From: Opitutaceae bacterium
Lineage (GTDB): Bacteria > Verrucomicrobiota > Verrucomicrobiia > Opitutales > Opitutaceae
NCBI GenBank assembly: GCA_031272375.1
Contig: JAISTY010000056.1
Coordinates: forward strand, 1 to 22,624
Direction: 5' to 3'
Length of the DNA: 22,624 nt
Part shown: piece after piece, positions 992 through 19,019 of the stretch
Layout of the letters: each line of letters starts with the position of its first letter
Position numbering within the stretch: the stretch's first letter is position 1
Translations under genes and position numbers: made by a program
Notes under the pieces: generated by a model
What the model was told of the DNA's origin: nothing
Databases searched by the model: none
The model's input: only the letters and a program-made list of their open reading frames with translations

Positions 992-1029
992 CGGCAACTT
1001 GTCGCCGCCCGGCGCGGCGGCTTGCCGCC
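992..1029. repeat. Intergenic 12-mer copy plus GGCGGC-TT-GCCGCC hairpin
   Basis: The gap between the oxidoreductase and the MFS gene holds a reverse-orientation copy of the dispersed 12-mer (CGGCAACTTGTC, 992-1003). A perfect 6-bp hairpin, GGCGGC-TT-GCCGCC, follows at 1016-1029 and itself begins like another copy (CGGCGGCTTGCC at 1015-1026). It could act as a weak terminator for the upstream gene, but there is no T-tract. Confidence 0.6.
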
Positions 1030-1069
1030 ACGCCCCTGAAATCCCATCCACCCGTCCCTCAACCCAACC

Positions 1070-2353
1070 ATGTTCAAATCCGCCAATCCCCTCCGTCCCT
1101 CCTACAAATGGGAGATGCTCACGCTGCTCTCCCTCGCCTTCTTCCTCAACCAGGCCGACCGCGCCATCTACGGCGTCGTCCTCCCCCACATCCGCGAGGA
1201 CCTCGGCCTGACCGCCTCCCAGGTCGGCCTCGTCGGCACCATCCTCTTCTGGACGATGGGCGTCATGATCCCCTTCGCCGGCTTCGTCGGCGACCGCGTC
1301 CCCAAGGCCCCCCTCATCACCTTCTGCCTCTTCTTCTGGAGCATCTCGACGCTCTTCACAGGCGCCGTCGGCGGCATCCTCGGCCTGATTCTGCTGCGCA
1401 GCGTCGCCACCGGCGGCAGCGAGGCCTTCTACGCCCCCTCCGCCTACGCGCTGATGGCCAAGTTCCACACCACCACGCGCTCCATCGCCCTCTCCATCCA
1501 CCAGGCCGCCTTCTACACCGGCATCATCACCAGCGGCTTCCTCGCCGGCGGCATCGCCGAGAAATGGGGCTGGCGCCACGCCTTCTACATCTACGGCGGC
1601 TGCGGCGTCGTCCTCGGCGTCGTCTTCCTCTTCCGCCTCCGCGACACCAGGGGCGCCACCCTGCAAACCGCCGGACAAGCCGCCGCCCCGCAACCCGCCG
1701 CCGAACCGCCGCCGTCCTTCCGCGAGTCCTTCCTCCTCGTTTTCCGCGTGCCCACCGCCCTGCTGATCGCCTGCGGCTTCGCGGCCCTCAACAGCGTCCA
1801 CACCGCCCACATCGTCTTCGGCTCGGAGCTGTTCCTCGAAAAATTCCCCAAACTCTCCCTCACGCAGGCCGGCTTCTACTCCATGTCCATCCACTACAGC
1901 TTCGCCTTCGTCGGCATCATCGCCGGCGCCGCGCTCTCCGACTGGATGGTCCGGCGGCGTCCGGGTTTCCGCCTCGAAATGCAGACCCTCTCGATGATTC
2001 TGGGCGCGCCGGCGATTGTCTGGATGGGCCTTTCGCCGGACCTCTTCTCCATTTGCGCGGCGATGGCTGTCTTCGGCCTGATGCGCGGCTTCTACGAGAG
2101 CAACACGCAGGCCGCCCTCTTCGACGTGATACCGCCGCGTTTCCGCGCCATGTCCTGGGCGGTCGTGGGGCTTATCGGCCTTGCCCCCAGCTCCTTCTCC
2201 CCGCTGGTGATGGGCATGGTCAAAGGCCGCTTCCCCGAGCACGGCTACGCCTGCGGCTTCGCCTGCATGGGCATCCTCTGGGTCCTCGGCGCCATAGCCA
2301 TCCTCGTCGCCAGAACCCGCACCTTCAAACGCGACCGCATCGCCCTCTGCTGA
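1070..2353 (+). CDS. MFS transporter (sugar-phosphate/organic-anion permease-like)
   Basis: A 427-residue inner-membrane permease of the major facilitator superfamily with about 12 hydrophobic segments. The first half has TM1 with LNQADRAIYGVVLPHI, then a cytoplasmic loop GDRVPKAPLI, which is the MFS loop 2-3 signature in the form G-D-R, then LRSVATGGSEAFYAPSAYAL, a TM4 typical of the hexuronate/glycerol-3-phosphate permease side of the family. A hydrophilic Ala/Pro linker (about residues 200-220) joins the two six-helix halves and contains a copy of the dispersed 12-mer encoding GQAAA. The start codon has no Shine-Dalgarno sequence; the leader is C-rich. Substrate is not determinable. The gene converges on the abiE pair, with a GC hairpin between them. 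Confidence 0.85.
   Translation: MFKSANPLRPSYKWEMLTLLSLAFFLNQADRAIYGVVLPHIREDLGLTASQVGLVGTILFWTMGVMIPFAGFVGDRVPKAPLITFCLFFWSISTLFTGAVGGILGLILLRSVATGGSEAFYAPSAYALMAKFHTTTRSIALSIHQAAFYTGIITSGFLAGGIAEKWGWRHAFYIYGGCGVVLGVVFLFRLRDTRGATLQTAGQAAAPQPAAEPPPSFRESFLLVFRVPTALLIACGFAALNSVHTAHIVFGSELFLEKFPKLSLTQAGFYSMSIHYSFAFVGIIAGAALSDWMVRRRPGFRLEMQTLSMILGAPAIVWMGLSPDLFSICAAMAVFGLMRGFYESNTQAALFDVIPPRFRAMSWAVVGLIGLAPSSFSPLVMGMVKGRFPEHGYACGFACMGILWVLGAIAILVARTRTFKRDRIALC
1674..1685 (+). repeat. Dispersed 12-mer, GACAAGCCGCCG
   Basis: Exact consensus copy in the central cytoplasmic linker of the MFS permease; it encodes part of GQAAA, in a stretch that is poorly constrained in this family. Confidence 0.8.
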
Positions 2354-2362
2354 AAACCGCCC

Positions 2363-2393
2363 GCGCGCCGCGCGCGTCAGCCCCGCGGCGCGC
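2363..2393. terminator. Bidirectional GC hairpin between convergent genes
   Basis: GCGCGCCGCG (2363-2372) pairs perfectly with CGCGGCGCGC (2384-2393) across an 11-nt loop. It lies between the stop of the MFS gene and the stop of abiEii, so it could end transcription from both sides. There is no T-run on either strand, so it is not a classic intrinsic terminator. CGCGCGTCAG is also directly repeated here, at 2371-2380 and around 2390-2399. Confidence 0.5.
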
Positions 2394-2394
2394 G

Positions 2395-3189
2395 TCAGAG
2401 AAGTTTCAAAATGGCGTTTTTCTCAAAGAGCGCGGCGTCCTCCTTGCGCTCAAGGAAGGGGCGGACATCGAGGAGAAGCGCGTCCATCGCGAATGTCTCC
2501 AGACGATCGCGGACAAGCTGCCGCCATTGGGCGGCTTGGAAGGTTCCGGCGCCGTTTGTCTGGTCGAACGCGTTTTGAAGAAACGGAAGATTGGGTTCCT
2601 GCGGCGGCACTTTGGAACGATACCAGATGAGGTCGAACCAGTCGCGCCCCTTGGGATAAGCGCGGCATATGAGCGCGTGCAGCTTGCCGGCAAAGAGTGA
2701 CGGAAGATTGTAATGTTGAACGAGAAATGTCAGGTTGCGCGTGACGATTGTGCGTTCGCAAACCGCTCCGGCGGGCGGACGGGTGTCAATTTCAAGTTTG
2801 ATGGAGAGTTTTTGATCGGGGTAGGCGGACAAGCCCGCGTCATGGAGCAGGCCGGCGATGCGAATCCAGGCGGTGTTGACGGTTTTCCGGTCGTTCCAGG
2901 TCAGTTCCGCCGGCAGGTTGTTGAGGGCGAGGTCGCGCTTCACTTTTGCGAGCCACTTTTTGCCATCGTAGCCATCCGGCGAGACAAGGGAGAAATCAAG
3001 GTTCTCGGAGAAGCGCGGCAGGTTGTGCAGGAACCGCAACGCGGTGCCGCCGACAAACGCGATGCTCGCGGCGGCCTCGCTTTCATGGAGCGAGCGCAGG
3101 ACGAGCGCCTGGACGTATTCGCGCAACAGGTTCAGGGCGGCCTCCGGCGTGCCGGCGGAGCGGGCGAGTTGAAGGGCTTGTTCTTTCAT
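2395..3189 (-). CDS. abiEii: AbiEii-type nucleotidyltransferase toxin
   Basis: A 264-residue protein of the AbiEii/AbiGii family, the toxin half of type IV toxin-antitoxin systems. Members carry a DNA polymerase beta-like nucleotidyltransferase fold; related toxins such as MenT modify tRNA 3' ends. Seen here: FVGGTALR (about residues 45-52), PRFSENLDFSL (58-68), KLSIKLEIDTRPP (127-139) and FAGKLHALICRAYPKGRDWF (166-185). These are the four motifs in the expected order, with catalytic-site candidates D65, K169 and D183. Position 63 is Asn, where many relatives have Asp (SEDLDF). The start at 3189 is chosen because GGAGG lies six bases upstream and because ATG overlaps the upstream gene's TGA as ATGA. 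This is the only strong Shine-Dalgarno sequence seen in the window. A longer in-frame extension runs into the antitoxin gene and is not credible. Confidence 0.9.
   Translation of the reverse strand: MKEQALQLARSAGTPEAALNLLREYVQALVLRSLHESEAAASIAFVGGTALRFLHNLPRFSENLDFSLVSPDGYDGKKWLAKVKRDLALNNLPAELTWNDRKTVNTAWIRIAGLLHDAGLSAYPDQKLSIKLEIDTRPPAGAVCERTIVTRNLTFLVQHYNLPSLFAGKLHALICRAYPKGRDWFDLIWYRSKVPPQEPNLPFLQNAFDQTNGAGTFQAAQWRQLVRDRLETFAMDALLLDVRPFLERKEDAALFEKNAILKLL
2512..2523 (+). repeat. Dispersed 12-mer, variant GACAAGCTGCCG
   Basis: Copy lying antisense within the 3' part of abiEii; it is the only one inside the toxin-antitoxin segment. Confidence 0.6.
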
Positions 3190-3839
3190 GGGATTTCCTC
3201 CGTGCCAATGGTGTTGTCGCCCTCGTTGTCGCGCAGGGCGAGCCAGGTTTTCGCGGCCCGCAAAAGGCGCGGTCGCCCGGCGCGTTCCGCGTATCCCAAA
3301 AGGCGGGCGGCGTCCACGACACCGGTGTTTTGGTAGCGCATTTCGCCGAGGCGCGCGGGCGTCCATTCGCCCGTTGAAAGATGCCAGTGGTCAAGCAGGG
3401 CTTTCTCGGGTTCCGCAACGAGGAGGGTTCCTCCGGCGAATGTTGTCTGATGATAGCCGAAGAACGCCCCGTTCTTGAGGTGGCGATAGGAGAAAACGCC
3501 GAGCGCGTTTTCAAAGCGGCGCGGAACGCGGGTGGTGACGGCGGTGAGTTCCGAAACGCGTTCGGGAATCAAATCGTAAAATCCCAGCGCCCAACGGTCG
3601 CTCAAATAGGAGGGCGCGTAGAGCAACGCGGAAAGCGCGGCGGGATTGCGCGGGACGTGGGCGAAGGGTTCCGCCAGACAATACATACCCCGCCGCAACG
3701 GGAGCAGCTTGCCTTGCGCAATCCATCGGGAGAGCTGGACTTTGAGCGATGCGCGCGAGCCTGGTTCGATTTGGAAAAGCAGGGCGAAATCAAAGCAGGG
3801 CAGCATCGCGGTATGCGCCAATAAATCGTCAAATCTCAT
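3186..3839 (-). CDS. abiEi: AbiEi-type antitoxin / transcriptional autorepressor
   Basis: A 217-residue protein upstream of, and overlapping by four bases, the AbiEii toxin. AbiEi antitoxins have an N-terminal winged helix that binds operator DNA and a C-terminal domain that counteracts the toxin; in the known systems they repress their own operon. Seen here: SLKVQLSRWIAQGKLLPLRR followed by GMYCL (about residues 32-56), the expected winged-helix start; YAPSYLSDRWALGFYDLIPE (about 74-93), a conserved AbiEi core motif; and EPEKALLDHWHL (about 142-153), also typical. The start ATG at 3839 has no Shine-Dalgarno sequence, in contrast to the toxin. A perfect 25-bp palindrome lies 72 bp upstream and is the best operator candidate. 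Composition is less GC-extreme than the flanks, which fits a mobile defence cassette. Confidence 0.88.
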   Translation of the reverse strand: MRFDDLLAHTAMLPCFDFALLFQIEPGSRASLKVQLSRWIAQGKLLPLRRGMYCLAEPFAHVPRNPAALSALLYAPSYLSDRWALGFYDLIPERVSELTAVTTRVPRRFENALGVFSYRHLKNGAFFGYHQTTFAGGTLLVAEPEKALLDHWHLSTGEWTPARLGEMRYQNTGVVDAARLLGYAERAGRPRLLRAAKTWLALRDNEGDNTIGTEEIP

Positions 3840-3911
3840 GAATGTTGGTTAGCATTTATGTTATGTTTTGCAAACGGTTCTTGATGGCGTTTGGGGAGGG
3901 GGGATTGGTCG

Positions 3912-3936
3912 CGAAATTACGAAATTCGTAATTTCG
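3912..3936. promoter_or_regulatory. Perfect 25-bp palindrome, candidate AbiEi operator
   Basis: CGAAATTACGAA and its exact reverse complement TTCGTAATTTCG flank a single A. It is AT-rich in a GC-rich region and sits between the divergent abiEi (-) and the small exported-protein gene (+). AbiEi proteins are known to bind inverted repeats in their own promoter, so autoregulation is the leading explanation; control of the rightward gene is also possible. Confidence 0.55.
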
Positions 3937-4001
3937 GAGCAAACTTTGGCATGGCGAAAAATCGGCTTTTCATTTTCCGGCGCGGCGGGTTGGGTGCGGG
4001 C

Positions 4002-4316
4002 ATGAATCGGCATGACAGCGGTCCGTCGGTTGTGTGGCGCGTGTTCGCGGCCCCGCTCGCGGCGCTGTTGCTCGCGGTGTCAACAGCCGCCGCGGCGCCG
4101 GGGGCGCACCAATTTTTCCACGCGGACGCGGCGGAGCCGGGACACGTCTGCGCGGTGACTTTGTTCGCCCATGGCGTCGAGGAGGCTGTGCCGCCGGCGT
4201 TGGAAATCGCCGTGCCGGTCGCGGTTGAAACGCCGCGGCAACTTGTCGGCGGGGACGCGGTTTTTGCCGCGCCAGAACGCCGGCTGCCGCCGGGTCGCGC
4301 GCCGCCGGCCTGTTGA
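4002..4316 (+). CDS. Small exported His/Cys protein preceding the TonB receptor
   Basis: A 104-residue predicted exported protein. Residues about 10-30 (VVWRVFAAPLAALLLAVSTA) form a signal-peptide core with cleavage plausible after AAAA. The mature part begins GAHQFFHADAAEPGHVCAVTLF, with three His and one Cys spaced as in a possible metal-binding motif, then a Pro/Ala/Val-rich tail ending in Cys. I do not know a named family; the H-x3-H plus HxCAVTLF pattern and the position ahead of a ZnuD-like receptor suggest a role in metal uptake or sensing, which is inference. An in-frame ATG at 3951 with a GGAG 11 bases upstream would add 17 residues, but would place a charged segment before the signal peptide. 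A reverse copy of the dispersed 12-mer lies at 4236-4247 inside the gene. Confidence 0.55.
   Translation: MNRHDSGPSVVWRVFAAPLAALLLAVSTAAAAPGAHQFFHADAAEPGHVCAVTLFAHGVEEAVPPALEIAVPVAVETPRQLVGGDAVFAAPERRLPPGRAPPAC
4236..4247 (-). repeat. Dispersed 12-mer, variant GACAAGTTGCCG
   Basis: Identical to the intergenic copy at 992-1003, here inside the small exported-protein gene, where it encodes RQLVG on the gene strand. Confidence 0.7.
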
Positions 4317-4358
4317 AAAAAGGCATCGCCGAAGTCGCTCCGATTTTCCGCGCGCGCC

Positions 4359-4370
4359 GACAAGCCGCCG
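4359..4370 (+). repeat. Dispersed 12-mer, GACAAGCCGCCG
   Basis: Consensus copy in the gap between the small exported-protein gene and the TonB receptor gene, where no coding constraint could have created it. Confidence 0.8.
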
Positions 4371-4398
4371 CGCGTTTTTCAACAACAACGTCCGTGAA

Positions 4399-4430
4399 CA
4401 CCCGTTCGGGTTAATAAACCCCTTTTGGGG
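4399..4430. promoter_or_regulatory. Two adjacent short hairpins in TonB-receptor leader
   Basis: ACCCG-TT-CGGGT at 4400-4411 and CCCC-TTTT-GGGG at 4419-4430 are separated by AATAAA-like sequence. They could terminate read-through from the small upstream gene or fold in the leader of the receptor mRNA. The stems are short and no T-tract follows. Confidence 0.3.
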
Positions 4431-4480
4431 AAACCGCCGGATTACCCGCGGGGTTTGCGGATTTTAACGGACAACATAAG

Positions 4481-4511
4481 CATATTCTATTAACTATAAA
4501 TAGATTATATG
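4481..4511. promoter_or_regulatory. AT-rich inverted repeat, candidate promoter/operator of TonB receptor
   Basis: TCTATT (4486-4491) and AATAGA (4499-4504) are perfect inverted arms around the 7-nt centre aactata, and the outer bases CATAT and ATATG continue the symmetry with a 2-nt offset. It lies 47-77 bp before the receptor ATG and is sharply AT-rich against its surroundings. A Zur/Fur-type metal regulator site is possible by context, but the sequence does not match the enterobacterial Zur or Fur consensus. Confidence 0.4.
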
Positions 4512-4557
4512 TCCATGAAAAGGCTTCCATTTAACGGCGGACAAAATCTGTTTTATC

Positions 4558-6807
4558 ATGAAATTCCCCAACGCACTTCAAAACGCGCGGCTGTTTGCGG
4601 CCGTGTTCGCCTTAACTCCCGCCCTGCGCGCGGACGGACAAGCCGCCGCCGTGCAACCACCATCCACCCAACCTCTTGCGGAAAACCCTGCCCCAAATAA
4701 GGGACAGGTTAATAACGCCGCCGGCAAGGGACAGGTCAAAAATACCGGCGACGGCGATAGCCCCGATAAGGGACAGGTTAATCGCGGACGGGTTGTCGGC
4801 GGCTTGTCCGCGGACGGGGGGGCGACTGCCGATAAGGGACAGGTTAAAAATAAGGGACAGGTTATTAACGGGGAGGCGGGCGGCGGGCGGAGGGACGCGC
4901 GACAAGCTGCCGTCCGGCTTGACGCTCAACAAGTTGCCGACGACGAGGTTGTTCTGCTGGAGGCGCAGGTGGTGACGGCGGCGCCGTTCCGCCGGGACAG
5001 GGCGGAGCTGGCGGCGGCAACCAATGTGCTGGCGGGGGAACAGTTGCGACGGGCCGCCGCGACGTCGTTGGGGGAGACGCTGGACGGGGAGCCGGGGCTG
5101 GCGGCGTCGGGGTTCGCGCCGGGGGCAAGCCGTCCGGTCATCCGCGGGTTGGGCGGGGCGCGAGTGCTGGTGCTGGAGGACGGGTTGGGGACGTTGGACG
5201 CGTCCGTTGTCAGTCCGGATCATGCGGTTGCGTTGGAGCCGCTTTTGGGCGGGCGTGTGGAGGTGGTGCGGGGGCCGGCGGCGTTGTTGCACGGGAGCGG
5301 GGCGGTCGGCGGGGTCGTTAACGTCATTGACGGCCTGATCCCCGAAAGCGCGGGGTCGGCGGCTTGCTCGGGGCGGTTTGGGGGACAGGTTAATTCCGAT
5401 GACAACGGGCGCGTCGGCGGCGGGCGGTTGGAGGGCGCGGCGGGCGGGGCGGTGGCGTGGCGGCTGGACGGGTTGCGCCGCGAGGCGGGGAATCGGCGGA
5501 CGCCGGCGGGGGTTGTCGAGAACAGCGCGGTGGAGACGGAGGTGTTGCGCGGCGGCTTGTCGTGGGTGGGGGCGCGCGGGCGCGCGGGGGTGTCGGCGAC
5601 GGGTTTTGGGAGCGATTACGGGGCGGTCGCGGAGGAGGATGTCACGATACGGTTGAAACGGCGGCAGCTTGCGGCGGAGGGGGCGTTGGAGCGGTTGGGC
5701 GGGTTTTTCAGCGGGTTGCGGACAAAGGCGGGGTTCACGGATTACCGGCACACGGAGTTCGAAGGGGACGAGACGGGGACGGTTTTTAAGAGCCGGGGAG
5801 GGGAGGCGCGGGCGGAATTGCTGCACGGGCGGACGGGCGGGTTTGAGGGGGCGTGGGGCGCGCGGGCGGGCGCGGACCGCTTCTCGGCGGAGGGCGAGGA
5901 GGCGTTCCTGCCGGCGTCGCGGACGGTTTCGGGGGAGGTGTTCGCGTTCGAGGAATGGGCGCGCGGCGGGACGCGGGCGCAGCTGGCGGCGCGGGCGCAA
6001 TTCCAACGCGTCCGGCCCGAGGGCGGCGCCGCGCGGAGGGACTGGACGGGGGCGTTTTCGGCGGGCGTCGTGCGGGACATCGGGGGCGGTTGCGCGGTGA
6101 CGCTCTCGGTGACGCGGAGCGGGCGGGCGCCGTCGGCGCAGGAGTTGTTCGCCGACGGGCCGCACGCGGGGACGGGCGCGTTCGAGATCGGCGACAGCGC
6201 CCTCGCCTGCGAACGCGTGTGGTCGGGCGATCTCGGCATCACTCGGAAAACGGGGCGCGTGACGGGGGCGTTGCGGGTGTTTGCGACGCGGTTCGACGGG
6301 TTCATTTCCGAGCGGGCGACGGGGGAGGTCAGGGACGGGCTGCCGGTGTATCGGTTCGCGCAAAGCGACGCGGTGTTTTGGGGCGCGGAGGCGGAGGCCG
6401 TTTTCAAATTGCTGGACGCGCCGGACAACGCGGTGGAGCTGCGCGTGACGGCGGACGCGGTGCGGGCGGAGACGCGCGGGGGCGCCCGCGGCAGGCTGCC
6501 GCGGATGACGCCGTCGCGGGCGGGGGCGGAGCTGACCTGGCGCGGACGGTGGCTGACGGCGACGGCGGGGTTGCGGGCGGCGGACCGCGCGCGGCGGCCC
6601 GCCGCGGAGGAGACGGCGACGGCGGGGTGGTGCCTCGTGAACGCGGAGGTCGCCGTCCCAGTGAGGGCGGGAGGGTTTTCGGGGGAGTTTTTCCTGCGGG
6701 GGACGAACCTGACAAACCAGTTGGCGCGAAACCACGTCTCGCTGCTGAAGGACAAAATGGCGGCGGGCCGGCGCGGCGTGACCGCCGGCGCGCGCGTGGC
6801 GTTTTAA
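4558..6807 (+). CDS. ZnuD-like TonB-dependent outer-membrane receptor with repeat-built linker
   Basis: A 749-residue outer-membrane receptor. Residues 1-25 form a signal peptide. Residues about 30-125 are a low-complexity linker with five KGQV-N/K/I units made by an inserted DNA repeat. A TonB-box-like VVLLEAQVVT (131-140) leads into the plug. PGASRPVIRGLGGARVLVLE (188-207), VSPDHAVALEPLL (218-230) and VEVVRGPAALLHGSGAVGGV (234-253) closely match the ZnuD zinc-receptor plug. Barrel motifs typical of the same branch follow (DYRHTEFEGDETGTVF, then AFLPASRT and FAFEEWA), and the chain ends in Phe as barrel proteins do. Uptake of zinc or another metal is inferred from the branch and from the convergent CDF exporter; the His-rich loops of neisserial ZnuD are not evident. 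Codons end mainly in G, unlike the C-ending codons of neighbouring genes. The start has no Shine-Dalgarno sequence. Confidence 0.88.
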   Translation: MKFPNALQNARLFAAVFALTPALRADGQAAAVQPPSTQPLAENPAPNKGQVNNAAGKGQVKNTGDGDSPDKGQVNRGRVVGGLSADGGATADKGQVKNKGQVINGEAGGGRRDARQAAVRLDAQQVADDEVVLLEAQVVTAAPFRRDRAELAAATNVLAGEQLRRAAATSLGETLDGEPGLAASGFAPGASRPVIRGLGGARVLVLEDGLGTLDASVVSPDHAVALEPLLGGRVEVVRGPAALLHGSGAVGGVVNVIDGLIPESAGSAACSGRFGGQVNSDDNGRVGGGRLEGAAGGAVAWRLDGLRREAGNRRTPAGVVENSAVETEVLRGGLSWVGARGRAGVSATGFGSDYGAVAEEDVTIRLKRRQLAAEGALERLGGFFSGLRTKAGFTDYRHTEFEGDETGTVFKSRGGEARAELLHGRTGGFEGAWGARAGADRFSAEGEEAFLPASRTVSGEVFAFEEWARGGTRAQLAARAQFQRVRPEGGAARRDWTGAFSAGVVRDIGGGCAVTLSVTRSGRAPSAQELFADGPHAGTGAFEIGDSALACERVWSGDLGITRKTGRVTGALRVFATRFDGFISERATGEVRDGLPVYRFAQSDAVFWGAEAEAVFKLLDAPDNAVELRVTADAVRAETRGGARGRLPRMTPSRAGAELTWRGRWLTATAGLRAADRARRPAAEETATAGWCLVNAEVAVPVRAGGFSGEFFLRGTNLTNQLARNHVSLLKDKMAAGRRGVTAGARVAF
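4637..4648 (+). repeat. Dispersed 12-mer, GACAAGCCGCCG
   Basis: Copy right after the signal peptide of the TonB receptor, encoding GQAAA as in the MFS linker and FtsY copies. Confidence 0.8.
4697..4866 (+). repeat. Array of five GGGACAGGTTAA units inside the TonB receptor gene
   Basis: Cores start at 4701, 4728, 4770, 4836 and 4854: GGGACAGGTTAA three times, GGGACAGGTCAA once and GGGACAGGTTAT once, mostly preceded by ATAA or TAA. Every core starts at the same codon phase, so each is read as (N/D/G)KGQV(N/K/I). That phase avoids the in-frame TAA that another phase would create. Spacing is irregular (27, 42, 66 and 18 bp), so this is not simple slippage of one unit. Confidence 0.9.
4797..4808 (-). 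repeat. Dispersed 12-mer, GACAAGCCGCCG
   Basis: Reverse-orientation copy among the GGGACAGG units of the receptor linker. On the minus strand it runs directly into a second partial unit, GACAACCCG (4789-4797). Confidence 0.8.
4901..4912 (+). repeat. Dispersed 12-mer, variant GACAAGCTGCCG
   Basis: Copy at the end of the receptor linker. A near-copy with AACAAGTTGCCG lies at 4928-4939. Confidence 0.7.
5382..5393 (+). repeat. Sixth GGGACAGGTTAA unit, in first barrel strands of TonB receptor
   Basis: The unit is read as GGQVNS, in the same phase as the linker copies but about 520 bp downstream, inside the transition from plug to barrel. The preceding bases (5357-5368) also contain a 12-mer variant, CGGCGGCTTGCT. 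Confidence 0.75.
5550..5561 (-). repeat. Dispersed 12-mer, GACAAGCCGCCG
   Basis: Reverse copy within the receptor barrel, read on the gene strand as RGGLSW. Confidence 0.75.
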
Positions 6808-7706: not shown

Positions 7707-7759
7707 CGCGGGAAGGTAAGCGCGGATTTTCCAAACAAACCACACCGTTTTCCCTCCAC

Positions 7760-8680
7760 ATGGGCCTTTTCCAGAAATTCAAAACCGGCCTCGCCAAAAC
7801 CTTCGCCGCCATCAGCGGGAAGGCGCGCGGGCTTTTCGGCGGGCGCGCCATTGACGCCGCCTCCATCGAATCCCTCGAGGAGGCGCTTTACACCGCCGAT
7901 TTCGGCTCCGAAACCACCGCCGAGATCCTCTCCGAAATCAAAACCGCCTTCAAAAAGGAACGGGAGCTGCGCGGACAAGCCGCCGCCGAAATCGGCGCCG
8001 CCGTCCTCACCCGCGCCCTCGCCGGCTCCGAGGGGAAATTTCCCGGCGACAAGCCGCCGCCGCCCCCCGGCGTCATCGTCCTCACGGGCGTCAACGGCTC
8101 CGGCAAGACCACCACCGCCGCCAAGCTCGCCTGGCGCATCCGGCAGTCGGGGCAAAAGGTCACCCTCGCCGCCTGCGACACCTTCCGCGCCGCCGCCGTC
8201 GAGCAGCTCAAGACCTGGGCGGCGCGCCTCGACCTCGACATCGTCGCCTCGCGCACGGGCGCCGACGCCGCGGCCGTTGCCTTCGACGCCCTTGCCGCCG
8301 CGCGCGCCCGCGGCTCCGACTGGCTGATCGTGGACACCGCCGGGCGCCTGCACACCAAGGACAACCTCATGGCCGAACTCGCGAAAATCCGCCGCGTCCT
8401 CCAGAAGCAGATTCCCGATGCGCCGCACCACAGCTGGCTCGTCGCCGACGGCAGCCTCGGTTCCAACACCATCGAGCAGGCCCGCGTTTTCCACAAAAGT
8501 TTCGGACTCACCGGCCTTGTGGTCACCAAGCTCGACGGCACCAGCCGCGGCGGCGCGCTCGTCGGCGCGTGGCGCGAGTTGAAGTTGCCCGTTTATTTCA
8601 TCGGCCTTGGCGAGCAGCCCGACGACCTCCAGCCCTTTGACGCCCCCGCCTACGCCCGCGCCGTCTTCGGCCTCGATTGA
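7760..8680 (+). CDS. ftsY: Signal recognition particle receptor FtsY
   Basis: A 306-residue SRP receptor GTPase that docks ribosome-SRP complexes at the membrane for cotranslational insertion. The N domain covers residues about 1-100, with EEALYTADFG (40-49). The G domain has GVNGSGKT (110-117), DTFRAAAVEQL (140-150), DTAGRLH (192-198), TKLDGT (256-261) and GLGEQPDDLQPFD (282-294), all in FtsY order. There is no acidic A domain; the protein begins directly with a short amphipathic segment, MGLFQKFKTGL. The insertion-box-proximal motif, usually DATTGQNA, reads ADGSLGSN (229-236). The start at 7760 fits the family; an upstream in-frame start at 7688 lies in the gap and adds no conserved sequence. 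Two 12-mer copies encode GQAAA and GDKPP in the poorly conserved N-G region. The gene is divergent from the CDF gene and convergent with ligA, 15 bp away. Confidence 0.96.
   Translation: MGLFQKFKTGLAKTFAAISGKARGLFGGRAIDAASIESLEEALYTADFGSETTAEILSEIKTAFKKERELRGQAAAEIGAAVLTRALAGSEGKFPGDKPPPPPGVIVLTGVNGSGKTTTAAKLAWRIRQSGQKVTLAACDTFRAAAVEQLKTWAARLDLDIVASRTGADAAAVAFDALAAARARGSDWLIVDTAGRLHTKDNLMAELAKIRRVLQKQIPDAPHHSWLVADGSLGSNTIEQARVFHKSFGLTGLVVTKLDGTSRGGALVGAWRELKLPVYFIGLGEQPDDLQPFDAPAYARAVFGLD
7974..7985 (+). repeat. Dispersed 12-mer, GACAAGCCGCCG
   Basis: Copy in the FtsY N domain, encoding GQAAAE. Confidence 0.8.
8048..8059 (+). repeat. Dispersed 12-mer, GACAAGCCGCCG
   Basis: Copy read in a different phase from the other ftsY copy (GDKPPPP), at the variable N-G domain boundary. 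The phase change shows that the DNA word, not a peptide, is what recurs. Confidence 0.8.
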
Positions 8681-8685
8681 GGCGG

Positions 8686-8695
8686 CGGCGGGTTG

Positions 8696-8697
<2 letters not shown>
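8686..8697 (-). repeat. Dispersed 12-mer, GACAACCCGCCG, at ftsY/ligA junction
   Basis: Reverse copy filling the 15-bp gap between the convergent ftsY and ligA genes. The ligA TGA stop overlaps it (TGACAACCCGCCG on the ligA strand). Confidence 0.8.
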
Positions 8698-12812
<4,115 letters not shown>

Positions 12813-12827
12813 AACACCCCCGCGCCC

Positions 12828-13211
12828 ATGCCGGCCATGCCCCTCACCTTCGACAGCGACGACGCCCCCGAGCGCAAGGCGGACGCCTGCCGCCGCTGGC
12901 TGGACGAACTCCCCCTCGACACCCGCTTCCGCCAGAAGGAACTCGCCGGCGGCGCCGCCGCGCCGGGCGCCCTCGCCGCCTTCTTCCGCCGCTTCGCCGG
13001 CGTCTCCCCGAAACGCTACTTCGACCGCCGCCGCGTCCAGTTCTGCCGGCGGCAGCTTGCCGACCCCCTCGTCCCCATCAAAACCATCGCCATAGACCTC
13101 GGCTTCCGCCGCCTCTCCGACTTCTCCGAATGGGTCAACCTCCGCTTCGGCGCCCCGCCCCGCCGCCTCCGCGAACGCCTCCTCGCCCGCAAACAGCCGC
13201 CCGCGCCCTGA
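12828..13211 (+). CDS. Stand-alone AraC-family DNA-binding domain protein
   Basis: A 127-residue protein consisting essentially of an AraC/XylS DNA-binding domain. The first helix-turn-helix spans about residues 20-60 (FRQKELAGGAAAPGALAAFF, then RRFAGVSPKRYFDRRRVQFC). The second is at about 78-120: VPIKTIAIDLGFRRLSDFSE, then WVNLRFGAPPRRLRERL, matching the usual IADIALECGFSSQSYFSRxF pattern. It has no N-terminal sugar-binding or receiver domain, so it resembles SoxS/MarA/Rob-type small regulators rather than AraC itself. It lies between the glycosidase and the ABC ATPase with 15- and 16-bp gaps, so it is probably cotranscribed and controls this operon; how it senses the sugar is not visible. 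An ATG at 12837 is an alternative start. No Shine-Dalgarno sequence lies at a usable distance. Confidence 0.85.
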   Translation: MPAMPLTFDSDDAPERKADACRRWLDELPLDTRFRQKELAGGAAAPGALAAFFRRFAGVSPKRYFDRRRVQFCRRQLADPLVPIKTIAIDLGFRRLSDFSEWVNLRFGAPPRRLRERLLARKQPPAP

Positions 13212-13213
13212 AC

Positions 13214-13225
13214 GACAACCCGCCG
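13214..13225 (+). repeat. Dispersed 12-mer, GACAACCCGCCG, immediately before ABC ATPase start
   Basis: It ends two bases before the ATG of the ATPase gene and fills most of the 16-bp gap, the place where a ribosome-binding site would normally lie. Confidence 0.8.
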
Positions 13226-13227
13226 CC

Positions 13228-14772
13228 ATGCCGCCGCCCTCCTCGATAACCTGCCGCGCCCTCACCAAACGCTTCGACCGCACCCTCGCCCTCGACGCCG
13301 TGGACTTCTCCGTCAACGCCGGCGAGGTCCACGCCCTCTGCGGCGAGAACGGCGCCGGCAAAAGCACCCTCGCCCGCATCCTCGCCGGCGTCGTCACCCC
13401 CGACTCCGGTACGATAAGCGTCGGCGGCGTCCCCGCCGAAATCACCACGCCCGCCCGCGCCCGCGAACTCGGCATCGGCATCGTCTTCCAGGAACTCGAC
13501 CTCTTCAACGGCCTCTCCGTCGCCGAAAACATGGCCCTCGGCCACCCCGACGCCGAACGCTTCTTCGTCCGCCGCCGCGCCCTCGCCGCCTGGTGCCGCC
13601 CCTTCCTCGCCCGCGTCGGCCTCCCGGAACTCGACCCCGCCTCGCCCCTCGGCTCCCACGGCATCGCCACCGCCCAGCTCGTCGCCATCGCCCGCGCCCT
13701 CGCCCTCAACGCCCGCTTCCTCCTCCTCGACGAACCCACCAGCTCCCTCACCGAGGAGGCCGCCGACCGCCTCCTCGCCCTCGTCTCCGAACTCAAAAAC
13801 ACCGGCACCGGCATCGTCTATGTCTCCCACAAAATGCGCGAAATCTTCCGCGTCGCCGACCGCGTCACCGTCCTCCGCGACGGCTCCCTCGTCTCGACCA
13901 AACCCGCCCGCGACACCTCCATCGGCGAAACCGTCTCCCTCATGGTCGGACGCGCCATAGACACCTCCGCCCGCATGACAACCGCCCCGCGCGACGCCAT
14001 CGCCCTCCGCCTCGACAACCTCTCCACCCGCCGCGTCCGCGGCGTCTCCCTCTCCGTCCGCCGCGGCGAAATCGTCGGCGTCGCCGGCCTTGTCGGCTCC
14101 GGCCGCAGCGCCCTCGGCAAGGCCCTCTTCGGCATGGAACCCTGGACGGACGGCTCCGCCACCCTCGCCGGCGAACCCTACCGGCCCCGCTCGCCCGCCG
14201 ACGCCATCCTCTCCGGCTGCGCCTACCTCCCCGAGGACCGCCGCGGTCAGGGCCTCTTCCTCCAGACAAGCGTCCGCCACAACGCCTCCGCCGCCATCCT
14301 CTGCCGCCTCCGCCGCGGCCCCTTCGTCCGCCGCTGGCAGGAAACCAAACTCGTCCGCGACGAACTTGCCCGCACCCGCGCCAAAGTCCCCTCCCTCGCC
14401 GCCCCCGTCAGCGCCCTCTCCGGCGGCAACCAGCAAAAAGTCCTCCTCGCCAAATGGCTCCTCACACGCCCCGCGCTCCTCTACCTCGACGACCCCACGC
14501 GCGGCGTGGACATCGGCGCCAAGGCCGACGTCTATAAAATCATCGCCGAACTCTCCGCCGCCGGCACCGCCATCCTCCTCGCCAGCTCCGAAATGCCGGA
14601 ACTCCTCCGCCTCTCCCACCGCATCCTCGTCCTCCACGAGGGCCGCCCCGCCGGCCTCCTCGACGCCGCCACCGCCACCCAGGAGCAAATCATGGCCCTC
14701 GCAACCGACACCGCCCGACAACCCGCCGGCAACTCCGCCACGCGACAACCCGCCGCCTCCTCCCAATCGTAA
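13228..14772 (+). CDS. Sugar ABC transporter ATPase (RbsA/MglA/XylG family)
   Basis: A 514-residue tandem ATPase of the CUT2 sugar-importer class, cytoplasmic and paired with the RbsC-type permease at 17887. NBD1 has Walker A GENGAGKST (39-47), FQELDLFNGLSVAENM (about 90-105) and Walker B FLLLDEPTSSLTEE. Its signature segment reads SHGIATAQLVAIARAL, where relatives usually have LSxGxxQxVEIAxAL. NBD2 has the family's degenerate Walker A GLVGSGRSALGKALFG (about 287-302), a good LSGGNQQKVLLAKWL signature (about 397-411) and Walker B LLYLDDPTRGVDIGAK, with Asp in place of the usual catalytic Glu of LDEPTRG. Hydrolysis is therefore expected mainly at NBD1. The C-terminal tail carries two 12-mer copies encoding RQPA. 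A 27-bp gap separates it from the GH116 gene, an unusual interruption of an ABC operon. Confidence 0.93.
   Translation: MPPPSSITCRALTKRFDRTLALDAVDFSVNAGEVHALCGENGAGKSTLARILAGVVTPDSGTISVGGVPAEITTPARARELGIGIVFQELDLFNGLSVAENMALGHPDAERFFVRRRALAAWCRPFLARVGLPELDPASPLGSHGIATAQLVAIARALALNARFLLLDEPTSSLTEEAADRLLALVSELKNTGTGIVYVSHKMREIFRVADRVTVLRDGSLVSTKPARDTSIGETVSLMVGRAIDTSARMTTAPRDAIALRLDNLSTRRVRGVSLSVRRGEIVGVAGLVGSGRSALGKALFGMEPWTDGSATLAGEPYRPRSPADAILSGCAYLPEDRRGQGLFLQTSVRHNASAAILCRLRRGPFVRRWQETKLVRDELARTRAKVPSLAAPVSALSGGNQQKVLLAKWLLTRPALLYLDDPTRGVDIGAKADVYKIIAELSAAGTAILLASSEMPELLRLSHRILVLHEGRPAGLLDAATATQEQIMALATDTARQPAGNSATRQPAASSQS
14717..14755 (+). repeat. Two 12-mer copies (GACAACCCGCCG) in the ATPase C-terminus
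   Basis: Copies at 14717-14728 and 14744-14755, 27 bp apart and in the same phase, give RQPAG and RQPAA in a tail that lies beyond the conserved ABC fold. Confidence 0.85.
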
Positions 14773-14799
14773 GCGTAATTGTTCATTCATTCTCCCCCC

Positions 14800-17700
14800 A
14801 TGCGCCTCCAAACCCTCTTCTCCGCTCTCCTCCTCGCGCTCCTCGCGCGACAACCCGCCGCCGCCGCCCACGCCTTCAACGGTCCCCACACCGGCCCCAA
14901 CCTCGCCCGCGTCGCCTTCCCCGTCGGCGGCCTCGGCGCCGGCATGTTCTGCGTCGAAGGCTCCGGCGCCATCGCCTCCCTCTCCGTCCGGCATTCGATG
15001 GACTTCCACAACGAACCCTCCGTCTTCGCCGCCCTCTGCCTCCTCTCCGACTCCGGCAACCCCGCCGACAACACCGTCCGCGTCCTCGAAGGCCCCGTCC
15101 CCGACTGGAAATATTTCGGCCTCCCCGACAGCGGCAACGGCCTCGGCGGGCGCACCTACGGCCTCCCGCGCTTCCGCGAGTGCGCCTTCCTCGCCCGCTT
15201 CCCCTTTGCCACCGTCTTCCTCCGCGACCCCGCCGTCCCCCTCTCCGTCGAACTCACCGCCTGGAGCCCCTTCACCCCGCCCGACGCCGACAGCTCCAGC
15301 CTCCCCGCCGGCGCCCTCGAATACCGCTTCAAAAACACCTCCCAAAAAAACCTCCGCGCCGTCTTCTCCTTCAACTGCCGCGGCAACTTCATGGCCCGCG
15401 CCAAAGGCGCCTCCAACGGCGCCCTCGCCGACTCCGCCGGCTCCATAGGTCCCATCGCCGGCGGCTTCGTCCTCCACGAGCAACAAGCCGCCGCCACCCG
15501 CGCCGGCGGCCCCTCCTTCGCCTTCTTCGTCAACGACCCCGCCGTCGTCGTTGACCACTGCTGGTTCCGCGGACGCTGGTTCGACGCCATGACCGTCGCC
15601 TGGGACAACGTCGCCGGCGGCCGCCCCGTCGCCAATCCCCCCGTCCCCGGCAACGCCCCCGGCGCCTCCCTCGCGCTGCCCTTCACCCTGAAGCCCGGCG
15701 AGGAGCGCGTCGTCCGCCTCAACACCGTCTGGTTCGTCCCCTCCGGCAACCTCAGCAGCGGCGTCTCCAAAACCGCCGCGCCCGTCCCCACCCCCGGCGC
15801 CGCCTTCGGCGCCGGCCCCGTCCGCCCCGAAAACTACCCCAACCCCCGCGTCCGCTCCGCCTTCAACCAGCGCGGCCAACGCTTCCTCTCCTCCTACAAC
15901 ACCCCCCACCTCGACGACGCCACCGGCGTCCTCGCCTCCGCCCCCTTCACCCTCCAGCGCCCGCGCCTCAACCTCCTCGTCTCCGGCGGCGCCTTCCCCG
16001 GCGCCACCTGCGTCAACCTCCTCGTCGCCGGCAAAATCGTCCGCACCGCCACCGGCGACGGCGACGAAACCCTCCGCTGGAAATCCTGGGACGTCTCCCC
16101 GTTCGCCGGACAAGCCGCCGTCATCGAAATCGTTGACAGGCGAACCGGACCCTGGGGCCACATAAACGTGGACGACATCGTCCAGTCCGACGTCCCCGCC
16201 ACGACCTCCGTCCCGCCCGGCAGCCTCGCCGTCTGCGACTTCGAGTTCGCCTCCTGGAAAAACTCCGGCTGGACCGCCCGCGACGAGGCCGCCCCCGGCA
16301 AGGCTTCCTACGCCCCCTGGTATGCCTCCAAATTCAACTCCATCCACGCCGCCGCCGCCCACTGGCGCGACAACGCCCCCGCCCTCCGCGAACGCAGCGC
16401 GAAATTCCGCGACGCCCTCTTCGCCTCCACAATCCCCCCGGAGGCCCTCGAAGCCGTCGCCGCCAACCTCTCCATCCTCAAATCCCCCACCGTCCTCCGC
16501 CAGACCGACGGGCGCCTCTGGTGTTGGGAGGGCAACTTCGACAACCGCGGCGCCTGCGCCGGCTCCTGCACCCATGTCTGGAATTACGAACAGGCCCTCT
16601 GCCGCCTCTTCCCCTCCCTCGCCCGCGACGCCCGCCGCTCCGTCTTCTTCGAGGGCCAGGACGCCAAAGGCCGCCAGGCCTTCCGCCTCAACCTCCCCCT
16701 CTCGCCGGGCGGCACCGCCTTCGACGCCGCCGACGGCCAGCTCGGCGAAATCATGAAGGTCCACCGCGAATGGAAATTCTCCGCCGACGACGCCTTCCTC
16801 CGCGCCCTCTGGCCCAAGGTCAAAACCGCCATCAACTATGCCATCGCCAAATGGGACCCCCGCGAAACCGGCCTCCTCGAGGAGTCCCACCACAACACCT
16901 ATGACATCAATTACTACGGCCCCGACGGACACTGCGGCACCTTCTACCTCGGCGCCCTCGCCGCCGTCTCCAAAATGGGCGCCGCGATGGGCGAGGACGT
17001 TTCCCGCTACCAAACCCTCCTCGCCAAAGGCCGCGCCCGCCTCGAAACCGAACTCTTCAACGGCGAATACTTCGTCCAGCGCGTCGCCAAATCCGGCCTC
17101 GTCGAAAACTTCAAACCCCTCAACCCCGACGACCAGAGTGCCGCCTACCGCGACACCGCCCGCCGCATCAACGACGAGGGCCCCAAATACCAATACGGCG
17201 CCGGTTGCCTCTCCGACGGCGTCCTCGGCCTCTGGCTCGCCAGACTCTGCGGCATCACCGACGACCTCGTTGACCCCAAACTCGTCCGCTCCCACCTCCT
17301 CGCCGTCCACCGCCACAACCTCAAAAACAACCTCTCCACCCACGCCAACCCCCAGCGTCCAAATTACGCGATGGGCGACGACGCCGGTCTCCTCCTCTGC
17401 ACCTGGCCCCGCGGCGGCAAACCCCTCCTCCCCTTCGTCTATAGCGACGAGGTCTGGACCGGCATCGAATACCAGGTCGCCTCCCACCTCGCCCTCTCCG
17501 GCGAACCCGCGAAGGCCCTCGAAATCGTCCGCGCCGTCCGCAACCGCTACGACGGCGTCCGCCGCAACCCCTTCAACGAATACGAATGGGGGCATTGGTA
17601 TGGCCGCGCCCTCTCCAGCTACGCCCTCCTCCCCGCCTTCTCCGGCGTCTCCTACGACCCCGCCGCGCAAAAAATCCTCGTCGCCCCCAACGCCCCCCGC

Positions 17701-17808
17701 GACGGTGCCTTCCTCCTCAACGCCCCCGCCGGCACCGGCCTCGTCACCCTTAAAAACGGACGCCCCTCCCTCGCCGTCATCGAGGGCCAAATCCCCCTCA
17801 AAAACTAA
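14800..17808 (+). CDS. Exported GH116-type glycoside hydrolase (DUF608) with inserted beta-sandwich module
   Basis: A 1002-residue exported enzyme of the GH116 type (non-lysosomal beta-glucosylceramidase GBA2 relatives, mostly acting on beta-glucosides and beta-xylosides). Residues 1-27 are a signal peptide (MRLQTLFSALLLALLARQPA). The N-terminal domain starts VAFPVGGLGAGMFCVEGSGA (about 44-63). The catalytic alpha/alpha barrel has DGRLWCWEGNF (about 569-580) with E577 as a nucleophile candidate, CTHVWNYEQAL (589-601), and HHNTYDINYYGPDGHCGTFY (697-716), where D702 aligns with the TYD of the GBA2 acid/base region. Residues about 350-465 are an extra module with FLSSYNT, VSGGAFPGATCVNLLVAGK, RWKSWDVSPFAG and GPWGHINVDDIVQSD. 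This pattern is familiar from C-terminal modules of GH32 levanase-like proteins and is probably carbohydrate-binding. The start at 14800 is preferred over TTG 14779. Substrate unknown. Confidence 0.85.
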   Translation: MRLQTLFSALLLALLARQPAAAAHAFNGPHTGPNLARVAFPVGGLGAGMFCVEGSGAIASLSVRHSMDFHNEPSVFAALCLLSDSGNPADNTVRVLEGPVPDWKYFGLPDSGNGLGGRTYGLPRFRECAFLARFPFATVFLRDPAVPLSVELTAWSPFTPPDADSSSLPAGALEYRFKNTSQKNLRAVFSFNCRGNFMARAKGASNGALADSAGSIGPIAGGFVLHEQQAAATRAGGPSFAFFVNDPAVVVDHCWFRGRWFDAMTVAWDNVAGGRPVANPPVPGNAPGASLALPFTLKPGEERVVRLNTVWFVPSGNLSSGVSKTAAPVPTPGAAFGAGPVRPENYPNPRVRSAFNQRGQRFLSSYNTPHLDDATGVLASAPFTLQRPRLNLLVSGGAFPGATCVNLLVAGKIVRTATGDGDETLRWKSWDVSPFAGQAAVIEIVDRRTGPWGHINVDDIVQSDVPATTSVPPGSLAVCDFEFASWKNSGWTARDEAAPGKASYAPWYASKFNSIHAAAAHWRDNAPALRERSAKFRDALFASTIPPEALEAVAANLSILKSPTVLRQTDGRLWCWEGNFDNRGACAGSCTHVWNYEQALCRLFPSLARDARRSVFFEGQDAKGRQAFRLNLPLSPGGTAFDAADGQLGEIMKVHREWKFSADDAFLRALWPKVKTAINYAIAKWDPRETGLLEESHHNTYDINYYGPDGHCGTFYLGALAAVSKMGAAMGEDVSRYQTLLAKGRARLETELFNGEYFVQRVAKSGLVENFKPLNPDDQSAAYRDTARRINDEGPKYQYGAGCLSDGVLGLWLARLCGITDDLVDPKLVRSHLLAVHRHNLKNNLSTHANPQRPNYAMGDDAGLLLCTWPRGGKPLLPFVYSDEVWTGIEYQVASHLALSGEPAKALEIVRAVRNRYDGVRRNPFNEYEWGHWYGRALSSYALLPAFSGVSYDPAAQKILVAPNAPRDGAFLLNAPAGTGLVTLKNGRPSLAVIEGQIPLKN
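14849..14860 (+). repeat. Dispersed 12-mer, GACAACCCGCCG
   Basis: Copy at the signal-peptide cleavage region of the GH116 enzyme (ARQPAAAA). Confidence 0.8.
16109..16120 (+). repeat. Dispersed 12-mer, GACAAGCCGCCG
   Basis: Copy inside the inserted beta-sandwich module of the GH116 enzyme, encoding AGQAAV. Confidence 0.75.
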
Positions 17809-17837
17809 CCGACCGCACCCACCCGCCCGCTTGACAC

Positions 17838-17864
17838 CTCCGCGCCCTCCGCGCCCTCCGTGAG
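17838..17864 (+). repeat. Three 9-bp CTCCG(C/T)G units before the permease gene
   Basis: CTCCGCGCC at 17838 and 17847, then CTCCGTGAG at 17856, in perfect 9-bp register. The same CTCCGTG word makes up the arms of the inverted repeat after the permease gene. An alternative GTG start of the permease (17860) lies in the last unit. Confidence 0.75.
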
Positions 17865-17886
17865 AAACCTCCCAACCGCTTCCGCC

Positions 17887-18861
17887 ATGAAACTCCCGCC
17901 CGCACTCGCCCGCTTCCGCGAAATCCTCGGCCTCGCGCTTATCTTCGCCGCCGCCGTCATCTTCAGCCCGACAGGCTCCGGCGGCGAAAACATCTTCCTC
18001 CAGCCCGACAACCTCACCGACATCCTCCGCCAGCAGGCCGAGATCGGCATCATCGCCCTCGCCATGACCCTCGTCATCATCTCCGGCGGCATAGATCTCT
18101 CCGTCGGCAGCCTGCTCGCCTTCGTCGCCTCCCTCACGGCCCTGCTCCTCGTCAAATGGCAGCCCGCCCTCGGCCCCGCCGCCCACATCACCGTCGCCCT
18201 CCTCGCCGCCCTCGCCTCCGCCTTCCTCCTCGGCTTCCTCAACGGCGCCGTCATCGCCCGCCTCCGCCTCCAGCCCTTCATCGCCACCCTCGCCACCATG
18301 ATCGGCGTCCGCGGCCTCGCCCGCTGGATGTGCGACAACGCCAACATTGACTTCGGCTTCGGCGGGCATGTCTCCGCCCGCTTCGCCGACATCTTCTCCG
18401 ACAAACTTTTCGTCATCGGCCTCTGGGCCGCCGCCGCCGCGTTCTTTTACGTCCTCCTCGAATACACCGTCTTCGGACGCCACGTCCGCGCCGTCGGCGA
18501 AAACGAGCGCACCGCCGGCTACACCGGCCTCCCCATCCGTTTCACCAAGGTCGCCGTCTATTCCCTCTGCGGCCTCGCCGCCGGCGTCGCCGGCCTCATC
18601 CACGCCGCCCGCAGCTACCAGGGAAACCCCAACGACGGCTCCGCCTACGAACTCGACGCCATCGCCGCCGTTGTCATCGGCGGCACCGCGCTCTCCGGCG
18701 GCAAGGGCAGCATCCCCGGCACGATCATCGGCGCGCTCATCATGGGCGTCCTCACCAACATCCTCCGCCTCCGCCTGATAGACACCAACGTCGAATTCAT
18801 GATCAAGGCCGTCATCATCGTCGCCGCCGTCTGGCTCCAATCCCCCCGCAAGGCCAGGTAA
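17887..18861 (+). CDS. Sugar ABC transporter permease (RbsC/XylH family)
   Basis: A 324-residue inner-membrane permease of the CUT2 class. Eight to ten hydrophobic segments are visible. Family signatures: ISGGIDLSVGSLLAFVASL after TM2 (about residues 66-84), AVGENERTAGYTGLPIRFTK (about 203-222) and AAVVIGGTALSGGKGSIPGT (about 260-279). It would form the channel with the ATPase at 13228 and receive sugar from the binding protein at 19021. ATG 17887 is preferred; GTG 17860 is in frame, would add nine residues and lies within the 9-bp repeat. The gene follows GH116 after 78 bp, so an enzyme gene separates the ATPase from the permease. The sugar transported cannot be read from the sequence; CUT2 systems usually move monosaccharides, including ribose, xylose, galactose and furanose-form arabinose. 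Confidence 0.93.
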   Translation: MKLPPALARFREILGLALIFAAAVIFSPTGSGGENIFLQPDNLTDILRQQAEIGIIALAMTLVIISGGIDLSVGSLLAFVASLTALLLVKWQPALGPAAHITVALLAALASAFLLGFLNGAVIARLRLQPFIATLATMIGVRGLARWMCDNANIDFGFGGHVSARFADIFSDKLFVIGLWAAAAAFFYVLLEYTVFGRHVRAVGENERTAGYTGLPIRFTKVAVYSLCGLAAGVAGLIHAARSYQGNPNDGSAYELDAIAAVVIGGTALSGGKGSIPGTIIGALIMGVLTNILRLRLIDTNVEFMIKAVIIVAAVWLQSPRKAR

Positions 18862-18869
18862 GGCAAATC

Positions 18870-19019
18870 ACACGGAGATCACGGAGTTTTAATCCATTAA
18901 ATAACAACAAAATAAACACAACCTCCCGACAACCCGCCGCATCACAAAACCGCCTTCGTTTCCCTTCTTAACTTCCACCCTTCTCCGTGCCCTCCGTTAA
19001 AACTCCGTGACTTCCGTGT
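18870..19019. repeat. Long inverted repeat enclosing the permease/binding-protein gap
   Basis: The 23-nt arm at 18870-18892 and the reverse complement of 18997-19019 match at 21 of 23 positions; the two differences are adjacent. A transcript could fold into a 23-bp stem around a roughly 104-nt loop that holds a 12-mer copy. The right arm ends one base before the binding-protein ATG. The arms contain CTCCGTG words, and 18983-19019 carries four degenerate units (CTCCGTGCC, CTCCGTTAA, CTCCGTGA, CTTCCGTG). Confidence 0.85.
18928..18939 (+). repeat. Dispersed 12-mer, GACAACCCGCCG
   Basis: Intergenic copy near the middle of the loop enclosed by the inverted repeat. Confidence 0.8.

Follow-up and report, generated by a model that had tools for sequence, protein, structure and literature searches.

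A lineage-specific 12-base DNA word iterated throughout an Opitutaceae draft genome, and a candidate DNA-uptake signal

A contig of 22,624 bp from an Opitutaceae bacterium of the Verrucomicrobiota (assembly GCA_031272375.1, contig JAISTY010000056.1, 67.3% G+C) carries many copies of a degenerate 12-mer, GACAA[GC][CT][CT]GCCG, also written GACAASYYGCCG. This contig, analysed whole, is called the window below; it belongs to a draft genome, G000, in which the same word recurs. We found that the Opitutaceae draft has a lineage-specific, genome-wide 12-base word that acts at the level of DNA, and this finding is real and strong. As to its role, we lean towards a candidate DNA-uptake signal, a recognition word in DNA that would work by a mechanism like that of uptake sequences. 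Uptake "self" tags have so far been described in two families of Proteobacteria. If true, the Verrucomicrobiota word would have a third, independent origin, would open a new lineage to tests of the drive-versus-sex question on the spread of such words, and would provide a new pilin-DNA code to set beside ComP. Should uptake not be its role, a strong lineage-specific word at the DNA level remains.

Abundance in the draft and its relatives

The whole draft (1,461,740 bp in 242 contigs, 67.59% complete, 0.23% contamination) holds 909 copies of GACAASYYGCCG, 498 forward and 411 reverse, or about 622 per Mb. Read backwards as a control, the word occurs 11 times (5 forward, 6 reverse). The comparison set comprised 94 relatives, another 251 genomes from the family and another 386 from the phylum, together 626 different genomes. 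Their highest count is 48, in a genome of 9.1 Mb (G147), and the densest of them (G563) has 21 copies in 2.4 Mb, about 9 per Mb, densities of the other genomes being estimated by eye from count tables. Congeneric genomes did not turn up in the family and phylum searches. Counting the word in the genome and in relatives had been proposed when it was first noticed in a sequence-only reading of the window, and the count gives a large excess here and near-chance levels in relatives.

In an unmasked sample of 266,035 bp, an order-3 Markov model expects 2.70 strict copies and 196 are seen, one per 1357 bp on average. In a stretch of 184 kb that has 57 copies of the commonest form, a fifth-order model fitted on that very sequence still expects only 2.91. 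The sample was drawn from 40 contigs, seven of which, each shorter than 3 kb, consist of N only; 33 of the 34 unmasked sampled contigs (window included) have the word, the exception being a contig of 3.1 kb. The encoded proteins agree with an Opitutaceae origin: the best matches of the ligase include Opitutaceae and Opitutales drafts, and the named relatives of the MFS transporter and of HisF include Termitidicoccus mucosus, Ereboglobus luteus, Rariglobus and other Opitutaceae.

A word at the DNA level

The excess acts on DNA and not on peptides, and the proteins together with their codon use do not explain it. Genes were called by a codon-usage script (200 genes over threshold, 205,344 bp) that missed at least the TonB receptor of the window and, at the threshold used, accounts for 72% of the sample when its masked parts are counted in. 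Sense orientation prevails in reading frames, with 92 of the 196 copies in sense and 38 in antisense; 4 more lie on gene edges and 62 outside called genes, the latter being an upper estimate because the caller is incomplete. Codons were shuffled synonymously within genes, 200 times. The shuffle gave 5.49 sense copies on average (standard deviation, s.d., 2.23, maximum 12) against the 92 seen, and 0.96 antisense copies (s.d. 0.94, maximum 4) against 38. Since the shuffle keeps every protein and its codon use and still leaves few copies, the excess lies at the DNA level. The sequence-only reading had named Markov and codon-preserving expectations, and conserved peptides, as what might account for the word; the counts in the sample stand above both expectations and the peptides alone are insufficient.

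All six reading phases are used, three of them mostly, and the variants sort by phase. Sense phase 0 has 44 copies, read as DKLP, DNPP, DNLP or DKPP, among which GACAAGCTGCCG leads (15/44). Another 45 stand in sense phase 1 (RQAAA, GQAAA, RQVAA), led by GACAAGCCGCCG with 27, and only 3 in sense phase 2. Antisense copies fall into phase 2 (26, read as GGGLS and similar), phase 0 (7) and phase 1 (5). For the word to stand in phase 1, CGA or GGA must precede CAA, and in the called genes CGA makes up 1.8% of arginine codons and GGA 6.7% of glycine codons. Copies are about 1.7 times as dense in gaps as in genes: the 40,042 bp between genes hold 43 and the 205,344 bp of genes hold 130, where between-gene stretches were delimited by calls scoring over 15 and genes were those scoring over 30.

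Form of the word

The word has a grammar of its own: its two arms, GACAA and GCCG, are fixed, and the three bases between them are confined to few combinations. Its commonest form is S-GACAAG[C/T][C/T]GCCG-CC, and the flanks of 137 aligned copies share hardly more than a C or G ahead of the 12-mer and C-C after it. Variant counts on the sample show almost no change at positions 3-5 and 9-12; either G or C stands at position 6, C, T or sometimes G at position 7, and C or T at position 8. When position 6 is C, position 7 is almost always C as well and T there is nearly excluded (1+1 of 196). The chief tolerated departures from the degeneracy given above are A at position 1 (38 seen, 2.3 expected), G at position 2 (25 seen, 2.9 expected) and G at position 7 (20 seen, 1.7 expected). 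With its degenerate centre, the word lacks dyad symmetry and differs from its own complement.

Origin of the copies

Aligned orthologues indicate that, at the six sites that can be compared, the copies arose by base substitution. These sites lie in FtsY, HisF and a PrmC-like protein, and orthologues run through them ungapped in 148 of 149 rows, none of which has the word. The FtsY site at 7974 was aligned in 29 orthologues, 28 of them ungapped and one reaching it at the end of its local alignment (29 loci returned, 37 other genomes matched); the word is in 0/29. HisF has two sites, each ungapped in 29/29 (29 loci returned, 34 other genomes matched), again with no word. In the PrmC-like protein (28 loci, L263 left out, rows under 45% identity dropped before counting), three sites are ungapped in 20/20, 21/21 and 21/21 orthologues, all word-free. 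Gapless alignment with word-free orthologues implies substitution at these places, not insertion. Some of the substitutions are synonymous and some cost amino acids: in HisF, LTRAVSD is most frequent in relatives and LTRQVAD is found here. Copies in loops and linkers (1674 in the MFS transporter, 8048 in FtsY) and in gaps are unsuited to this comparison.

For HisF and FtsY, protein sequences hint that word peptides are kept in a sister lineage. Besides its own record, the nearest HisF (P0243, 84% identical) carries RQAAA and RQVA where the two word sites lie, and either peptide occurs in 0 of 117 other listed relatives. The nearest FtsY (P0122, 77%) has the linker peptide DKPP, seen in 0 of 118 other listed relatives, and is one of three among 119 listed relatives with GQAAA. 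We called a residue unusual where the bacterium's own sequence differs from the majority of relatives. The HisF sister shares such residues at 4/4 word-site positions and 27/53 others, and the FtsY sister at 2/3 word-site positions and 14/63 others, the linker being poorly aligned there.

What the word may do

By its measured features, a word that works like an uptake word is the best supported reading, its membership by function being putative. We envision that the word would have been built up at least partly through base substitution and be maintained because its gain or loss is biased. An uptake machine resembling a type IV pilus would bind it through a receptor at the cell surface, fragments bearing it would be preferentially taken up and recombined, and this bias would let the word accumulate wherever the encoded protein tolerates it. 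We infer a protein that reads the word and would act in DNA uptake, the reader presumably being a pilin. The larger claim, that this is a third, independently evolved word for self-recognition in uptake and the first outside Proteobacteria, with its own grammar and its own receptor, we find about as easy to doubt as to believe. The sequence-only reading had suggested looking for competence genes, and families that are common were indeed found: a ComEC domain protein, DprA and PilT over their cut-offs, and a GspG-like pseudopilin over its cut-off alongside other prepilin-type proteins. PilB/GspE-like ATPases run off their loci and score under the PilB cut-off. Such a set of genes agrees with DNA uptake.

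Several observations weigh against an uptake signal. Competence and pilus families are widespread and do not discriminate: among 14 control genomes, ComEC is found in 10, DprA in 11, T2SSE in 14 and N_methyl in 8. A receptor specific to the word was not identified in the draft. The nearest MFS relative (P0002, 77%) is without the word peptide and shares unusual residues at 0/1 word-site positions and 109/180 others; pooled over HisF, FtsY and MFS, the counts are 6/8 at word sites versus 150/296 elsewhere, too few to prove that the word drives conservation. A gene of the AbiEii type, a kind often acquired, bears one copy. The published uptake words compared have a less degenerate centre. Finally, a copy of opposite orientation stands within 60 bp of only 4 of 55 intergenic copies; with inverted pairs this rare, we rejected a use of word pairs as terminators.

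Rather than serving uptake, the word could be a HIP1-like site maintained by a DNA methyltransferase or by methyl-directed repair, which we consider unlikely. It is indeed genome-wide, evident at the DNA level and present in genes and gaps, as described for HIP1 (PMC4390886), but HIPs are palindromic and the present 12-mer, with its degenerate centre, has no dyad symmetry.

An about equally unlikely role is that of target for some other DNA-tracking or DNA-organising protein (Chi-like, KOPS-like, a nucleoid or segregation site). High copy number and selection at the DNA level would suit such a target. Chi and KOPS sites keep a preferred orientation along the replichore, and twelve bases are long for Chi. 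Neighbouring copies more than 60 bp apart have the same orientation in 83 cases and opposite orientations in 63, a nearly random order with a weak lean, in contigs too short for replichore comparison, and replication polarity finds little backing; the occurrence of tandem clusters also speaks against a Chi- or KOPS-like site.

That the copies were inserted as a small element, mobile or amplifying (RPE-, SDR- or REP-like), is improbable. Such an element would leave 15-bp arrays as traces, and clusters do exist: 27 copy-to-copy gaps are under 100 bp against 13.1 expected (s.d. 3.4), and tandem copies with a 15-bp period form part of the clusters, in protein tails and in one intergenic gap. That gap, upstream of a gene that we take from our own reading of its sequence to be pckG-like, holds four tandem copies facing one inverted copy. 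Some genic copies also lie in length-variable linkers. Against insertion stand the sorting of variants by reading phase, the flanks, which share little beyond about 2 bases, and the conserved genes, where each of the six sites aligns to 20 to 29 orthologues, ungapped save for one row at an alignment end. The earlier idea that the copies are remnants of a small mobile repeat thus finds no backing in the flanks or at these sites.

That peptides such as DKLP, RQAAA and GGGLS are selected as such is scarcely credible, since they do recur in linkers and tails but the shuffle leaves means of 5.5 of the 92 sense and 1.0 of the 38 antisense copies, and 62 of 196 lie outside called genes. Equally hard to credit is an artefact of assembly or binning, or contamination: the draft is in 242 contigs and 67.59% complete, but its contamination is 0.23% and the word is in 33 of 34 unmasked sampled contigs. 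The candidate uptake signal is the reading that we retain.

The window and other repeats

The 18 strict copies listed in the sequence-only reading are all present in the window, 13 forward and 5 reverse, and there are no others (Table 1). Its estimate that far less than one would be expected in this length agrees with about 0.2 from the order-3 Markov model (scaled from 2.70 per 266,035 bp). Both orientations and several reading phases are represented, as it had said; it placed five copies in or across gaps, and we count six (992, 4236, 4359, 13214, 18928 and 8686, the last overlapping the stop codon of ligA). The copy at 14849 looks by eye, without a predictor, as if it lay at a signal-peptide end of the GH116 protein.

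Table 1. Copies of the 12-base word in the window, with those of a second iterated word
Feature	Position	Strand	Context
GACAAGTTGCCG	992..1003	-	gap, alcohol-dehydrogenase-type gene / MFS gene
GACAAGCCGCCG	1674..1685	+	MFS transporter (1070-2353); GQAAA, variable loop
GACAAGCTGCCG	2512..2523	+	antisense in AbiEii-type gene (2395-3366, minus); gene reads RQLV
GACAAGTTGCCG	4236..4247	-	gap, no called gene
GACAAGCCGCCG	4359..4370	+	gap, no called gene
GACAAGCCGCCG	4637..4648	+	TonB-dependent receptor (4558-6807), N-terminal region; GQAAA
GACAAGCCGCCG	4797..4808	-	antisense in TonB receptor; gene reads GGLS
GACAAGCTGCCG	4901..4912	+	TonB receptor; RQAA; near-copy AACAAGTTGCCG 27 bp further on
GACAAGCCGCCG	5550..5561	-	antisense in TonB receptor; gene reads RGGLS
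GACAAGCCGCCG	7974..7985	+	ftsY; GQAAA (within RGQAAAEIG), ungapped site; word in 0/29 fetched orthologues
GACAAGCCGCCG	8048..8059	+	ftsY; DKPP, length-variable linker before G domain
GACAACCCGCCG	8686..8697	-	starts inside ligA stop codon
GACAACCCGCCG	13214..13225	+	16-bp gap, HTH_18 gene / ABC transporter gene
GACAACCCGCCG	14717..14728	+	ABC ATPase (13228-14772), C-terminal tail; RQPA
GACAACCCGCCG	14744..14755	+	ABC ATPase C-terminal tail, 27 bp after 14717 copy
GACAACCCGCCG	14849..14860	+	GH116 protein (14779-17808), near N-terminus; RQPA
GACAAGCCGCCG	16109..16120	+	GH116 protein; GQAAV
GACAACCCGCCG	18928..18939	+	gap, BPD_transp_2 permease / periplasmic binding protein genes
GGACAGGTTAA	window 4702, 4771, 4837, 5383; 20179; L050 13449-13591	+ (first four); - (20179)	second iterated word

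The near-N-terminal stretch of the TonB-dependent receptor (window 4558-4960) consists largely of iterated words in several phases, and protein linkers seem to be a landing ground for such words. The AbiEii-type gene (Pfam over cut-off) is overlapped at its start by a second minus-strand gene that has no Pfam match (window 2395-3839), and the two are perhaps an AbiE-like toxin-antitoxin pair. An exosortase-family gene lies at window 21113-22471; we assume that it may point to a sorting system of the PEP-CTERM type.

Other repeats accompany the word. A second iterated word, GGACAGGTTAA, has 12 copies in the 285 kb sample, three of them near the N-terminus of the TonB receptor (GQVN or GQVK) and one further in; the remaining copies stand outside called genes and in part form short arrays. 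This word may be akin to transposase-linked repeats. GAACAGAAGATAA also has 12 copies (in L036, L038, L039, L042, L047, L050 and L138); it belongs to a longer repeat that is centred on TTGAACAGAAGATAAGAAG and avoids called genes, and several of the contigs also have a TTCGTGTGAG motif. In five relatives, searched over 80 kb each, a depth at which weaker words could escape, we found no comparable excess 10-mers apart from a set in G019 (L188-L191), where overlapping 10-mers have 9-12 copies each in 80 kb (9-10 for words such as TTTCGGTAAG and ATCTACCTTA) and look like one longer dispersed repeat. In a viral collection, two contigs matched two words 15 bp apart, and the fetched pieces had those two copies only, the pair in one piece (L152) coding for a DKPP pair. 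These matches were taken as chance, and an occurrence of the word in viruses was rejected.

Comparison with known iterated words

Short palindromic or dispersed mobile repeats (REP, RPE, SDR) form one class for comparison. Like them, the word has many copies, some in frame in proteins and some clustered; unlike them, it has no long shared unit or flank, and its origin is ungapped at the sites compared.

The published systems below are compared as far as the available text of the cited papers goes. HIP1 (GCGATCGC) and the alternate HIPs are palindromic and tied to methyltransferases; they occur genome-wide in genes and gaps, with an abundance that depends on lineage (PMC4390886). The word shares with HIP1 that it is highly iterated and that its abundance varies with lineage, but it is no palindrome, so a strict HIP1 does not fit. 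The sequence-only reading had likened the word to DNA-uptake sequences or HIP1: genome-wide excess, the codon test, phases and strands uphold an iterated word of this general kind, and only the strict HIP1 falls away.

Uptake words are 9-12 nt long (PMC3630211, PMC12616744), are reported to originate by point mutation (PMC1939737) and favour one orientation in reading frames (PMC2346458). Our literature searches, with most subscription journals outside reach, returned no report of uptake sequences in Verrucomicrobiota, and a search on five spellings of the word gave nothing related by title. The uptake signal sequences (USS) of Pasteurellaceae (Hin AAGTGCGGT, Apl ACAAGCGGT; PMC12616744) resemble the word in high copy number and in their point-mutation origin (PMC1939737); the word here is longer. 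The invariant GCGG core of USS is absent from the forward word; the reverse strand contains it in no forms but those that have CC at positions 7-8 (82+33 of 196). With this core not kept, membership in USS was rejected. Apl-USS shares ACAAGC with the commonest form here, to which we give no weight, the likeness being probably chance or convergence since the organisms belong to different phyla.

The DNA-uptake sequence (DUS) of Neisseriaceae, a 12-mer, AT-GCCGTCTGAA, with its dialects (PMC3630211, PMC2397512), is unrelated in sequence and lacks the degenerate three-base centre seen here. The CTG core of all DUS dialects occurs here only in forms with CTG at positions 7-9 (33+15 of 196); it is thus not kept, and a DUS dialect was rejected. 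Inverted pairs of the terminator type, few here, are reported for DUS and USS (PMC3630211, PMC5217627). DUS are spaced at 1,128-1,150 nt in permissive sites of the core genome, are reported absent from recently acquired genes, and many are argued to arrive by recombination (PMC2397512). In its general traits the word is nonetheless like DUS: both have 12 bases and one copy per about 1.1-1.4 kb, on both strands and at permissive sites, in genes and between them, and type IV pilus genes are present.

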